Positions 3,352 through 29,892 of a stretch of DNA of 64,000 bases are shown here, piece by piece. How positions within the stretch are numbered: the stretch's first letter is position 1; each line of letters starts with the position of its first letter. The notes beneath the pieces are model-generated. The model was not told the DNA's origin. It searched no databases and saw only the letters and a program-made list of their open reading frames with translations. This DNA comes from Phycisphaerales bacterium (lineage in GTDB: Bacteria > Planctomycetota > Phycisphaerae > Phycisphaerales > SM1A02): assembly GCA_030749435.1 (NCBI GenBank), contig JASMKH010000001.1, positions 1-64,000 on the forward strand, written 5' to 3'. The translations under genes and the position numbers were made by a program.

Positions 3352-4676
3352 GCGGGATGCTCCTCGCTACAGCGCTGTTCGATGTGCTGCTGCTGGCCGA
3401 TTGGAACACGCGAGTCGTCGTCATCGGCACCTCCATGCTCGGTGTGGCCGCTGGGGTGGTCGGTTCCTTTCTCGTGCTTCGCAAGCGGGCGCTGCTCGGT
3501 GACACGGTGAGCCATGCCATGCTTCCCGGTGTGGTCGGCGCGTTTCTGATCATGCAGGCGTTCGGTGGCGGCGGCAAGAACTTCGGCGGGCTGCTCCTCG
3601 GGGCGGCGCTCGCTGGCGTGCTTGCGGCATGGGCAGTCCCAGTCCTGCGGCGGGCGACAGGCCTCAAGGATGACGCGATCATGGGCGTGGTCCTGGGTGG
3701 TGGCTTCGGACTCGGCATCGCGATGCTGGGCGTGGCGCAGGCCGTGCCGGGAGGGAACCAGGCCGGTCTGGAGTCCTTCATCTATGGGCGAACCGCCTCC
3801 ATGGTTCAGAGCGATGCGATCGGAATCGGGGCCACCGCAGCCGTGACGCTCGTCATCGCGATTCTGCTCGCCAAGGAGTTTCGGCTGCTGTGCTTCGACG
3901 AGGCGTTTGGCAGGGCGCTTGGGCGAAGGGAGGGATGGCTCGATCTCGGGTTGATGCTCCTTGCCGTGACGGTGACTGTCGTCGGACTGCAGGCGGTCGG
4001 CCTCATTCTCGTCATCGCGCTGCTCATCACTCCCGCGGCCGCCGCCCGATTCTGGACCGACGAGTTCCTTCGAATGATCGCGATTGCGGGTGCGCTCGGG
4101 GCGGTTGCCTGCTGGATCGGCGCGTCCATCAGTGCGCTGGCACCGGACCTCCCTGCGGGGTCGATCATCGTATTGACGTTGTCCTTTCTGTTCGGCATCT
4201 CGATGCTCATCGGTACGAGGCGCGGTGCGATCAAGCGACTCCTGCAGCGCCGCGATCTTCGACGGCGGACCGGCCAGCAGCACCTGCTGCGGGCGGCCGC
4301 CGAATCGATCGAAGCGAGAGACGCCGATGGGTGGGCGCTCAAGGACTTGATGCCGCTACGGAGTTGGTCAGGCGGCCAGTTGCGGTCGCTGCACCGCCGG
4401 GCGGTGCGGCGAGGTGATGTCGTCAGGAGCGAAGGCTGCTATGCATTCACGCCAACTGGGCGAGCCGCGGCGAATCGAGTCGTTCGGAATCATCGGCTCT
4501 GGGAGCTGTTCCTGATTCGGTACGCCGACATCGCGCCCTCGCACGTGGACCGGGATGCCGATCTGGTCGAACATGTGCTCGGTGAATCGCTGGTCAGTGA
4601 ACTGGAAGCCATGCTTGGCGATGGCTGTGGGGGCCTCCGGAGCCCGCATGCAGTGGGGACTCACCATGACGCTTGA
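3348..4676 (+). CDS. metal ABC transporter permease (ABC-3 family) with C-terminal DtxR/MntR-like domain
   Basis: ABC-3 permease LRKRALLGDTVSHAMLPGVV...; cytoplasmic tail LKDLMPLRSWSGGQLRSLHRRAVRRGDVVRSEGCYAFTPTGRAAANRVVRNHRLWELFLIRYADIAPSHVDRDADLVEHVLGESL resembles DtxR winged HTH plus dimerization helix. Confidence 0.88.
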   Translation: MSGMLLATALFDVLLLADWNTRVVVIGTSMLGVAAGVVGSFLVLRKRALLGDTVSHAMLPGVVGAFLIMQAFGGGGKNFGGLLLGAALAGVLAAWAVPVLRRATGLKDDAIMGVVLGGGFGLGIAMLGVAQAVPGGNQAGLESFIYGRTASMVQSDAIGIGATAAVTLVIAILLAKEFRLLCFDEAFGRALGRREGWLDLGLMLLAVTVTVVGLQAVGLILVIALLITPAAAARFWTDEFLRMIAIAGALGAVACWIGASISALAPDLPAGSIIVLTLSFLFGISMLIGTRRGAIKRLLQRRDLRRRTGQQHLLRAAAESIEARDADGWALKDLMPLRSWSGGQLRSLHRRAVRRGDVVRSEGCYAFTPTGRAAANRVVRNHRLWELFLIRYADIAPSHVDRDADLVEHVLGESLVSELEAMLGDGCGGLRSPHAVGTHHDA

Positions 4677-25991: not shown

Positions 25992-27782
25992 TCAGTTCGT
26001 ACCGGCAAGTTGCCGCATCGTGCGAACAAACCCGCGGGCGGTGGTCTTGAGGCTCATCATGGCGATCGCGGCCCAGCCCACGGCGGCGATGATCCCCGAG
26101 ACGACCAGCAGCCACTGCCCGCCGCCCGCCCCAAGCGGCGAGCCGCTCAGCATCGCCGGGCCGCTGATGGCCAGCACGATGCTGGCGAGCGGGCTTGCGG
26201 ACACGAATGGTGTGACGCCCCAGGCGACGGACGTGCCCGGCCCCGAGACGCAGGGAATGAGCAGCCCGGCGGCCAATCCGGCGATCACCGTTGAGGCCAG
26301 CATCGCATGGCTCGAGCGGCGGCTCCTGACCGACCAGTGCAGGCCGATGGCAATGCAGAAGGCGAGAAATGCAGGAAGCGTGAGGGCAAAGCCGATCAAC
26401 CCCCCCCACGACGCCACCGGCTGCAGCCCGGTGGGCGTCTGCAGCGCGAAGGCGGCTTCCCCACGGCTGGCAGCCAGCACACTTGCGGTCAGCACCGCCG
26501 TCGTGAGCGGCGCGAGCAGGAGCGGGGTCAGAAGCCTGCCGACGCCGATCAACTTGCCTCGCAGGTATGGGGTGGACTGAATGGGCGTGGTCAGCAGGAG
26601 ATCGAGCGTGCCGTCCTCACGGTCGCGGGTGATGGAAGTCGAGGCCGCCGCGATCGCCGCGAGGATCACCACGCTTGTTTCAATGAGGAGCACGATGAGG
26701 ATTCCCGATCGCGCCGTCGTCGGCAGGATGGATCCACCGCCGGCGAGCGAGAGCAACACCACGGTCACGGTGAGCGCGGCGGCAGCCCATCCCCATCGGG
26801 CGGTGTCCTCAAGCCTGCTGCGGGGGCGTCCGCCGGAGGCCCGCCAAGCAATCGGATTGAGCCCGACCGGCCGCGGGCGGCGTACCAGTCGCCGCCGCGA
26901 CGTGCTGCCGCGGCCCATGAGCGGGCCGAGGGTGCGGACGCGAAGGATGGCCCACCCGATGAGCAGCAGGGTGGCCGCGCCGCACGTGGCGAGGTAGGCG
27001 GCAAGGGGCTGACCAAGCCAGAATCGGACGAGCCCGGAACTTCCCAGGGGGGCGTTGGCGACGTATCTGGCTGGCCTCAGGAGTGACTCCAGGACGAGGA
27101 AGGGATTGAGCGGCGTGGCCCAGGTCGTACCCGTGGCACCGAGTACGCCGGGCACCGGCGAGCGAAGGCTCCCATCGGCAATCCAACTCAATGCCAGCGC
27201 CACAACGATCCCGGTGTAGAACCAGAGCACAGCCCGCCTGCCTCCGGTACGGCTGGCCGAGAGCATGACGGCAGCAGCCCCGACGACGCAGGCGGTTCCG
27301 GCAGCAACGGCTGCAGCGAGGACCACTGAGCCGGGATTGACGCCGCCCAGAATCTGGAGACTCAGGAGGATCGGCAGCCCGGCCAGAATCAGGGCAAGCA
27401 CGAAGAACACGCGGCCAGCCAGATTCCCCACGACGATGCCCATCGAGGACATGGGCGTGGTGAGCAGCAGATCCCAGGTCCGGGGGGAGGACTCCTGCTG
27501 AATGGCGCCCGCCATGAAGATGGGAGTCACGAGGCAGATGAGCGCGATTTCGACCAGGGTGGTCGCCTCAAAGATGAAAGCGCCGGCCATCGCCAGGCTT
27601 CGCAGCGAGGCATCGCCTCCGAACCCGACCGTCGCCAGGAGCGAGAGGGCGGCGGTGGCTGCCAGCACCGTGAGAAACAGCACCCGGATGAACTGGTGCC
27701 GCTTCCGCCGTGACGCCGTGACCACGATTCGCTCCACGAGCGGCCGGAAGTGTGTCTGTGTGATGGGTTTGGGGACTGGCAT
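25992..27782 (-). CDS. ABC-2-like transporter permease with two repeated membrane halves
   Basis: Many TM segments; duplicated motif TWDLLLTTPMSSMGIVVGNLAG and TLDLLLTTPIQSTPYLRGKLIG. Confidence 0.75.
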   Translation of the reverse strand: MPVPKPITQTHFRPLVERIVVTASRRKRHQFIRVLFLTVLAATAALSLLATVGFGGDASLRSLAMAGAFIFEATTLVEIALICLVTPIFMAGAIQQESSPRTWDLLLTTPMSSMGIVVGNLAGRVFFVLALILAGLPILLSLQILGGVNPGSVVLAAAVAAGTACVVGAAAVMLSASRTGGRRAVLWFYTGIVVALALSWIADGSLRSPVPGVLGATGTTWATPLNPFLVLESLLRPARYVANAPLGSSGLVRFWLGQPLAAYLATCGAATLLLIGWAILRVRTLGPLMGRGSTSRRRLVRRPRPVGLNPIAWRASGGRPRSRLEDTARWGWAAAALTVTVVLLSLAGGGSILPTTARSGILIVLLIETSVVILAAIAAASTSITRDREDGTLDLLLTTPIQSTPYLRGKLIGVGRLLTPLLLAPLTTAVLTASVLAASRGEAAFALQTPTGLQPVASWGGLIGFALTLPAFLAFCIAIGLHWSVRSRRSSHAMLASTVIAGLAAGLLIPCVSGPGTSVAWGVTPFVSASPLASIVLAISGPAMLSGSPLGAGGGQWLLVVSGIIAAVGWAAIAMMSLKTTARGFVRTMRQLAGTN

Positions 27783-27841
27783 TGGGGGGGCACGGGGCCT
27801 CAATCCATCGGGATCAAGGGTGCAGGGGGGGCATTGGACGA

Positions 27842-27871
27842 CTGACAGGGCCACAGGTCTGGCGTTATAGT
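27842..27871 (+). promoter_or_regulatory. sigma70-like promoter upstream of the stem-loop region
   Basis: CTGACA (27842-27847) - 18 bp - TATAGT (27866-27871); each hexamer matches consensus 5/6. Confidence 0.5.
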
Positions 27872-27888
27872 GGGTTCTTATAACGAGT

Positions 27889-28190
27889 GGTGGCGGGACC
27901 CTGCCAAAGTGCAGCCAACGCCACCTGTTTCACGGCTGGCCACGACACGGGCTGGACCGATTCACTCGGCCGATGGGCCGACACCGATTGCCATGCAACG
28001 GTGATAGATGAAGTGTGCTTTCGGGATGACCACTGTCATCCACCTCCCGGGGTCCGTGTGGGCACTCCGCCCACGGCACAGATCGGCCGACGTCAGGCCG
28101 ATGATCGGTTTGGTGCCCGCCGCTCCCTGCCTGGAGCGGGGGGGGCTGGCGAGGTATCTCGCACGTGTCAGCATGCCCTGAAGGGCATGC
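27889..28190 (+). ncRNA. candidate structured RNA / long 5' leader of rny, family unknown
   Basis: Consecutive stem-loops read directly: 27889-27925, 27967-27980, 27983-28002, 28024-28041, 28058-28074, 28082-28102, 28120-28139, 28149-28162, 28171-28190; no convincing ORF. Confidence 0.55.
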
Positions 28191-28224
28191 GGAGAGTGGC
28201 TGGTCGGTGCTGGGAGTGTTCCTG

Positions 28225-29892
28225 ATGCCGACGTTGGATGTGACTTTCGCGGTGCCGACACTGGTGGGCGGCGGGCTTCACGCTGGGGGAAGCGGCCGGA
28301 TCCCGGACTCCCTGCCGTTGCTGCTGGCGTTCGACTGGACCGCGGCCTTCACGCTGCTTGCCGGTGTGCTGGTGGGCGGGGTCTGCGGCGCCGTCGCGCT
28401 GAAACTGATTGCCGGCAGCGTCGTGTCGGCTGCTCGAAAGGAAGCCGAGACCGTCCGGTCGGCCGCCGCATCGGAAGCGGAGGCTGCCAAACAGAAGTCC
28501 GAATTGGACGCCGAGCGGGCCGCCAAAGATCGCCGCGAGGAGGTTGACCGCGAAGTCGCCGAGGCGCGAAAGGACATCAAGGCCAATCAGGACCGACTCT
28601 CGAAGCGAGAGGACAGTCTCGACGAGAAGACCGAACGGTTGGCCGGACGCGAGTCGTCGCTGGACAAGCGTCAATCCAAGGTGCAGTCCCGGGAGGAGTC
28701 TCTGGAGAAGCGGGCCGAAGTGGTGGAGGCGCGGGACTCCGAGATCACCGCCCGGCTCGCCGAGGTTGCGGAATTGAGCCTGGAGGATGCTCGAGCGGAG
28801 GTGCTCGAGCGCGTTGGACATGAAGCCGAGGAGGAATCCGCCGCCTTGAAGCGGCAGATCGTCGAGGCCGCCGAGAGTGACGCAAAGCGGCAGAGCCGAG
28901 AAATCACGCTCATGGCCATTCAACGATTCGCAGCTGAGCATGTCGCCGACTCGACGGTCAAGTCCGTCAAGATCCCGTCCGATGACCTGAAGGGCCGCAT
29001 CATCGGGCGTGAGGGGAGGAACATCCGGGCGATCGAGCGGGCCACCGGCGCCGACATTCTGGTCGACGACACGCCGGGCGTGATTTCGGTGTCGTGCTTT
29101 GATCCGATTCGCCGCGCGATTGCCGGCGAGTCGCTGGCCCGCCTCGTGGCCGACGGCCGCGTCCACCCTTCGCGGATCGAAGAGATCGTCGCGGCGGTCA
29201 AGAATGACCTTGAGGAGCGGATTACTGAAAAGGGAGGTGCGGCGGTCGTTGAGGCGAAGATGCGTGGCCTTCACCCCAAGGTCGTCGAGGCGATGGGGAA
29301 GCTGCACTTCAGGACCAGCTTCGGGCAGAATGTCCTTCGGCACTCGATTGAAGTCGCTTTTCTAAGCCAGTGCATCGCGGACCAGTTGGGACTCGACGGC
29401 GCGATTGCGCGGCGATGCGGCTTCCTGCACGACATCGGCAAGGCCATGGACCATGAGATGGAGGGTGGACATCCCGCAATCGGGATGGAGTTCGCGAGGC
29501 GGTTCGGCGAGAACCGCGACGAGGTGCTCAACGCCATCGGGGGGCACCATGGCGACATTCCCGCGACGAGTCCATACACACCGATTGTGATGGCTGCGGA
29601 TGCCGTTTCCGGCGCGCGGCCGGGGGCGCGGCGTGAGTCGATGGAGTTGTACATCCAGCGATTGAAACAACTGGAGGACATTGCCCGCGAGAGTGGGGCC
29701 GTGCGTGAGGCGTATGCCATCCAGGCGGGCCGCGAGGTGCGGGTCGTCGTCGACTCCGGCAAAGTCAATGATGACCAGGCGTTTGTGATCGCCGACAAGA
29801 TCGCCAAGCGGGTTGAGGATGAGATGACGTTCCCGGGTGAGATCAAGGTGACGGTGTTACGAGAGACGCGAGCCGAAGCGACGGCCCGATGA
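28225..29892 (+). CDS. rny: ribonuclease Y
   Basis: N-terminal TM, long coiled coil, KH domain IPSDDLKGRIIGREGRNIRAIERATGADILVDDTPGVISVS, HD domain HSIEVAFLSQ...GFLHDIGKAMDHEMEGGHPAIG. Confidence 0.96.
   Translation: MPTLDVTFAVPTLVGGGLHAGGSGRIPDSLPLLLAFDWTAAFTLLAGVLVGGVCGAVALKLIAGSVVSAARKEAETVRSAAASEAEAAKQKSELDAERAAKDRREEVDREVAEARKDIKANQDRLSKREDSLDEKTERLAGRESSLDKRQSKVQSREESLEKRAEVVEARDSEITARLAEVAELSLEDARAEVLERVGHEAEEESAALKRQIVEAAESDAKRQSREITLMAIQRFAAEHVADSTVKSVKIPSDDLKGRIIGREGRNIRAIERATGADILVDDTPGVISVSCFDPIRRAIAGESLARLVADGRVHPSRIEEIVAAVKNDLEERITEKGGAAVVEAKMRGLHPKVVEAMGKLHFRTSFGQNVLRHSIEVAFLSQCIADQLGLDGAIARRCGFLHDIGKAMDHEMEGGHPAIGMEFARRFGENRDEVLNAIGGHHGDIPATSPYTPIVMAADAVSGARPGARRESMELYIQRLKQLEDIARESGAVREAYAIQAGREVRVVVDSGKVNDDQAFVIADKIAKRVEDEMTFPGEIKVTVLRETRAEATAR

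Follow-up and report, generated by a model that had tools for sequence, protein, structure and literature searches.

The rny gene of this Phycisphaerales genome is separated from its putative promoter by approximately 350 nt of non-coding sequence that contains a series of perfect stem-loops. What this sequence is, and what it may do for the gene that follows, is the question raised by the locus. The window, which is the whole 64,000-nucleotide stretch of DNA that was analysed, comes from a fragmentary assembly of 1.8 Mb, and its named relatives are Phycisphaerales MAGs. As the sequence-only reading had proposed, the gene directly 3' of the leader encodes RNase Y, identified by its RNase_Y_N, KH_1 and HD domains (PF12072, PF00013, PF01966). 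The efp gene lies downstream of rny and a divergent ABC-2 permease gene lies upstream. RNase P RNA is found elsewhere on the same contig and not at the rny leader. The features of the locus are as follows, in window coordinates.

27842–27871, + strand: sigma70-like promoter CTGACA-N18-TATAGT
27889–27925, + strand: 5' hairpin GGUGGCG...CGCCACC between the presumed transcription start and the core (sequence, minimum-energy fold)
27930–28016, + strand: conserved core comprising the Pa/Pb hairpin, P3, P4 and the AUAGAU motif (covariance model matches, R1 and R2)
27934–27943, + strand: strand S (GGCUGGCCAC), with a local partner at 27950–27959 (Pa/Pb) or a distal partner at 28196–28205 (P1)
27944–27949, + strand: P2 5' strand GACACG, with loop motif ACGACACG, near-invariant in many members of family f1; its complement CGUGUCGU is kept downstream
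27950–27959, + strand: strand A (GGCUGGACCG), local partner of S (Pa/Pb covariation)
27966–27981, + strand: hairpin P3, UCGGCC-GAUG-GGCCGA, covarying, with 97.5–98.6% of cells paired
27982–28003, + strand: hairpin P4, CACCGAUUGC-CAU-GCAACGGUG, with double-sided changes in 7/7 modelled pairs
28004–28012, + strand: unpaired AUAGAUGAA (AUAGAUYSA across the order), candidate RNase Y contact or cleavage site (motif count; 6% paired in the window)
28024–28162, + strand: variable domain with hairpins at 28024–28041, 28058–28074, 28082–28102, 28120–28139 and 28149–28162 (sequence; differs between genus members)
28164–28169, + strand: P2 3' strand CGUGUC (CGUGUCGU conserved in relatives; paired in the minimum-energy fold)
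28171–28190, + strand: hairpin GCAUGCCC-UGAA-GGGCAUGC between the 3' strands of P2 and P1 (sequence, minimum-energy fold)
28196–28205, + strand: P1 3' strand GUGGCUGGUC, just 5' of the Shine-Dalgarno sequence (minimum-energy fold; complementarity to S in the genus)
28212–28216, + strand: Shine-Dalgarno-like GGGAG, 8 nt before the ATG
28225–29892, + strand: rny, RNase Y, 555 aa, with its ATG at 28225

The promoter and the lack of a terminator had both been pointed out from the sequence, and both observations hold. CTGACA (27842–27847) and TATAGT (27866–27871), spaced by N18, form the sole promoter-like site in 27780–28300, where 0.1 would be expected, and no terminator-like site was found in the same interval. 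Transcription would start about 7 nt after TATAGT, presumably near 27879. A TATAGT-like -10 element is retained across most of the window's genus, and many relatives present equivalent -10/-35 pairs, mostly with an N18 spacing, in which the -10 ends approximately 60 nt upstream of the conserved core. Since a promoter occupies this place in most of the relatives examined, being clearest where the elements are TTGACA and AATAAT, the core very probably belongs to the transcribed rny leader.

The leader is predicted to be highly structured. The fold of 27872–28224 (-177.7 kcal/mol, z = -4.0) was better than 100/100 dinucleotide shuffles, as was the fold of 27879–28240 (z = -3.6, all 100 shuffles), while the antisense strand folds more weakly (z = -2.5). 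In the minimum-energy fold of the window, P1, P2 and P4 are formed, AUAGAUGAAG is open and P3 is replaced by another pairing. The low coding potential proposed earlier is borne out, with the ORFs of the leader each matching one relative only, over 18–19 residues, and no conserved leader peptide was found in the rny leaders. All of the inverted repeats listed in the sequence-only reading are present where it had placed them; as a chain of hairpins they are only partly conserved. The core at 27930–28016 is maintained, whereas the hairpins from 28024 to 28162 vary even within the genus. The conserved element therefore consists of 27930–28016 and the distal strands 28164–28169 and 28196–28205, to the exclusion of the rest of the chain. 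A hairpin in the position of 27889–27925 is also suggested in other members of the genus.

Nucleotide similarity to the leader was found in 8/8 genomes of the same genus, always in the same place before rny, and a nucleotide search alone reaches only the genus. Nucleotide matches in other genera (for example G036:C187 and G027:C1) were rejected since they are not at rny. The rny upstream regions of other genera have in common the blocks ACGGCCCGCCC, ACGACACGGGCG, ACCGUU and GAUAGAUUGAA and, further on, CGUGUCGU. A MAFFT alignment of the whole core misplaced P3 and P4; as a result, a six-sequence seed and covariance models were used. The first model (R1), with six seed sequences all from genera other than the window's, recovered the window copy blind at 27930–28016 on the + strand (22.4 bits, E = 0.002) and also matched relatives in the genus and the family. 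With the second model (R2), whose training set includes the window copy, this copy was the single match in the whole genome (E = 3.5e-10).

From these models, the order of the core is a hairpin bearing the ACGACACG loop, P3, P4, and then the unpaired AUAGAUYSA directly after P4. In an alignment of 33 matches, double-sided changes were present in 19/21 pairs, which supplies the covariation that the sequence-only reading had named as a check. The paired cells amounted to 94.8% compared to 75.3% in shuffled alignments, the double-changed cells to 111 compared to 28, and 0/500 shuffles reached any of the covariation measures. When the partners were slid by 1–3 columns as a control, pairing dropped to 26–45%. 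The covariation holds with 60 matches (59 distinct), and the Pa/Pb helices covary across both the 33 and the 59 sequences, so the local pairing of S with A is well supported by comparison. The covariation alignments were fitted to the model and their counts are biased towards it; the blind recovery of the window copy, the strand of held-out matches, the single-sequence folds and the genome-wide position are supports independent of the fitted alignment. Among these, the core fold recurs in many single-sequence minimum-energy predictions.

Whole-genome searches with R2 and R3 covered overlapping sets of 151 genomes from the family, 251 and 301 from the order, 298 from the class and 294 from the phylum. 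Exactly one match per genome was obtained in the 54 Phycisphaerales genomes with a match, a number that is a lower bound given the strict search filters. The rny gene follows on the same strand in 52/52 checkable matches, the other two being near contig ends (G127, G141). Genomes outside of the building of the respective model behaved alike (for example G075 and G105 for R2; G041 and G229 for R3), and the held-out R2 matches with E values up to 0.11 were on the rny sense strand in 17/17 cases. The class- and phylum-wide searches revealed no convincing copy outside Phycisphaerales; the one weak match outside the order, in G821 (E = 0.032), lies close to the start of a contig, with no rny, and is probably due to chance. 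Upstream of rny, family f4 (L080, L088, L090, L100) yielded no recognisable AUAGAUYSA and no convincing core, and the element there has either been lost or become too divergent.

Two long-range helices link the core to the vicinity of the Shine-Dalgarno sequence: P2, formed by GACACG and CGUGUC, and in the window's genus also P1, formed by GGCUGGCCAC and GUGGCUGGUC. The 3' end of P1 is 6 nt upstream of the Shine-Dalgarno sequence, and in 7 of the 8 genus members listed the complementarity of its 3' strand to S extends over 7–11 nt. Compensatory changes in P1 are seen within the genus as CGGCUGG/CCAGCCG (L023), GGCUAGCC/GGCUAGUC (L028) and GGCCAGCC/GGUUGGCC (L029). In a partition-function swap test, the leader's own 3' end paired better than a swapped one in 8/8 genus members tested; applied family-wide to pooled relatives, this test was not significant (p = 0.12). 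A thermodynamic test of the duplex between S and the 3' region was non-discriminating, since long GC-rich regions pair by chance. In single-sequence ensembles, most genomes favour pairing of S with its distal partner; L031, L039 and L070 favour the local one. As the P2 strands are near-invariant and compensatory changes in them are scarce, one example being ACGACACA/UGUGUCGU in L039, P2 is graded as a probable helix rather than a proven one. Mimicry of a 16S rRNA stretch by CGUGUCGU was uninformative, with the pattern present in 1/26 genomes.

For the unpaired AUAGAUYSA, the pattern [ACG]AUAGAU[UC][GC]A occurs on the sense strand of 64/130 rny upstream regions and on the other strand of none; approximately 0.7 would be expected from a first-order Markov model, although the pattern was picked on the same 130 regions and the strand contrast is the better control. 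Immediately 5' of AUAGAU, 61% of 72 loci have the end of a helix with a score of at least 16, compared to 9% of control positions. The sequence AUAGAUUGA places two G/A steps beside P4 within a GC-rich leader, and AUAGAUYSA is the most AU-rich GA-containing window in 53/69 leaders. In one genus (L033, region 3419–3498, and L127) the GAUAGAUUC motif occurs twice before rny at a distance of 26 nt (GATAGATTCGATGGCCTCAGGTTACCGATAGATTCA), which is possibly a duplicated site.

Comparison to known families was made with Rfam 15, a check that had been named along with the initial proposal. At the gathering score the window contained only a tRNA elsewhere; at E values up to 10 the leader region gave only an antisense, sub-threshold match to P10; and 20 homologous leaders gave no relevant match. 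At the gathering score the leader thus matched none of the Rfam 15 families, among them rne5, rne-II, 6S and the riboswitches. A leader of the E. coli rne type was rejected, as the downstream gene is rny and RNase E/G is on another contig (G000:C33). 6S RNA (RF00013) was also rejected, there being no match in the nine genomes of the genus, and the weak matches of relatives lying off the rny contigs. Those 6S-like matches, mostly below the gathering score, are at G041:C99:18602-18786, G043:C57:40018-40198, G009:C48:20030-20193 and G040:C51:10847-10966; none is in the window's genus, and a divergent 6S RNA may be hidden there.

With its single copy, sense linkage to rny, covariation, upstream promoter, missing terminator and pairing that extends up to the Shine-Dalgarno sequence, the element can be taken, with very little doubt from comparison, as a real, conserved and structured 5' leader RNA in cis to an RNase gene, and the long structured rny leader first proposed from one sequence is upheld. 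As judged by comparison of the genomes, its fold, strand, copy number and linkage to rny are conserved. We infer the use of the promoter, recognition by RNase Y, the site of cleavage and the direction of regulation.

On balance, the leader probably acts in cis in the autoregulation of RNase Y. The 5' leader of the rny mRNA would fold into the Pa/Pb hairpin, P3 and P4 followed by the unpaired AUAGAUYSA, and P2, plus P1 in the window's genus, would place this core beside the Shine-Dalgarno sequence. RNase Y would then recognise its own leader, with AUAGAUYSA beside P4 serving as a docking or cleavage site. Free RNase Y would cut there and decay of the rny mRNA would begin; with RNase Y scarce or occupied by other RNA, the leader would stay intact and rny would be translated. 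Going by what is known of the enzyme family, such feedback is the simplest reading. In S. aureus, RNase Y cuts preferably behind a G in AU-rich RNA (PMC4608709), and in B. subtilis it cuts within a G/A dinucleotide in AU-rich RNA of low structure, often near a stem (PMC11780869). AUAGAUYSA, which is single-stranded, AU-rich and next to a stem, contains G/A and is a likely site of binding or cleavage. The B. subtilis enzyme also autoregulates by cleavage in its own 5' UTR and early ORF, with the strongest cuts in the 5' 50 nt of the UTR, for which a comparable conserved fold is not reported (PMC10303841). A more elaborate version, in which S pairs either with A or with the P1 strand and RNase Y at AUAGAUYSA decides between the two, would make the leader a sensor of decay capacity that couples RNase Y activity to rny translation. 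This two-state switch of S is a tentative possibility and not a result.

The target consensus of RNase Y in B. subtilis is weak (PMC11780869), so a strict 9-mer could mark some other type of protein or ligand site. The leader might then be cis-regulatory for rny while answering to a metabolite or ion as a riboswitch, to RNase E/G or to another RNA-binding protein. A compact covarying core with near-invariant unpaired ACGACAC and AUAGAUYSA is reminiscent of ligand-binding RNAs, and the alternative partners of S, local in a few genomes and distal in most, would fit a switch. The same genomes also encode RNase E/G, which could be the actor in place of RNase Y. Known riboswitch classes are usually found before several genes of one pathway, whereas this element precedes one gene only, once per genome, and has no match to an Rfam riboswitch. 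Taken together, control of the leader by anything but RNase Y is considered rather unlikely. As an observation on the genomes themselves, that of the window encodes RNase E/G at G000:C33:24105-24917, on a different contig from rny, and most relatives tested encode both enzymes; two decay-initiating endonucleases may thus operate side by side.

An independent small RNA, 6S-like or specific to the lineage, was the alternative offered in the sequence-only reading. Such an RNA would lie before rny by chance and might be released by processing. It would account for a promoter of its own, a stable autonomous fold, and helices P1 and P2 that nearly close the molecule. It is nonetheless very improbable and found no support, as 52/52 checkable copies precede rny and none are elsewhere, there is no terminator, P1 reaches to within 6 nt of the Shine-Dalgarno sequence, and 6S matches are absent from the window's genus and off the rny contigs in relatives. 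Less credible still, and largely contradicted, is a reading at the level of DNA, in which GATAGATT would serve a second promoter of rny as its -10, and the palindromes would be DNA sites or GC-rich repeats due to chance. While GATAGATT is similar to a -10 element and the leader is GC-rich, base-pair covariation is far above that of shuffled and slid controls, P4 ends exactly before the motif and occupies the place of a -35, a better promoter lies approximately 60 nt upstream of the core, and conservation extends beyond a hexamer.

Autoregulation by RNase Y, the favored reading, may be set against known leaders of RNA decay genes. The 5' UTR of E. coli rne (rne5), as Diwa 2000 and Schuck 2009 are said to have described, is a long structured leader with a conserved stem-loop used in RNase E autoregulation. 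Both rne5 and the rny leader are long structured leaders with a conserved stem-loop on the gene of a decay-initiating endonuclease; feedback by the enzyme itself, as in rne5, would be a further likeness. The rny leader belongs to an RNase of the HD/KH type in another phylum, with another fold (ACGACAC loop, AUAGAUYSA) and no Rfam match. The rne-II motif of Pseudomonadales (RF01756, PMC2864571) is likewise a structured and probably cis-regulatory RNA that takes its name from an RNase gene and was discovered purely by comparison, but in another lineage and on another gene, and without a match to the rny leader. In B. subtilis the gene is the same, and cleavage of the 5' UTR by RNase Y limits its own mRNA (PMC10303841). 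That leader is 164 nt, and its main cleaved part is AU-rich, with one stem-loop and without a defined recognition motif, in contrast to the approximately 350-nt, GC-rich, multi-helix and conserved leader of Phycisphaerales. The Actino-pnp motif (RF01688, PMC2864571) is also the leader RNA of an RNA-decay gene (pnp), but differs in gene, lineage and fold, and again the rny leader has no match in Rfam. No rny leader element in the Phycisphaerales lineage was found in the open-licence papers searched. The Rhodopirellula-1 motif of Proteobacteria and Planctomycetes is listed without an Rfam entry (PMC2864571). Relative to Rfam 15, the rny leader is classed as a new RNA, while its functional kind, that of leaders acting in cis on RNase genes, is known.

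With this finding, Planctomycetota, a phylum with few described regulatory RNAs, of which the Phycisphaerales are aquatic members, gains an RNA class that Rfam 15 lacks. The finding also points to the independent evolution of structured leaders on decay-initiating endonucleases, for RNase E in E. coli and for RNase Y in Phycisphaerales. For the question of how RNase Y selects its substrates, the conserved AUAGAUYSA beside a stem, found order-wide and together with the core only before rny itself, is a natural substrate on which specific recognition may be tested directly. If the two-state sensor were true, RNase Y, for which otherwise only a weak consensus is described, would have a signal that it recognises specifically.
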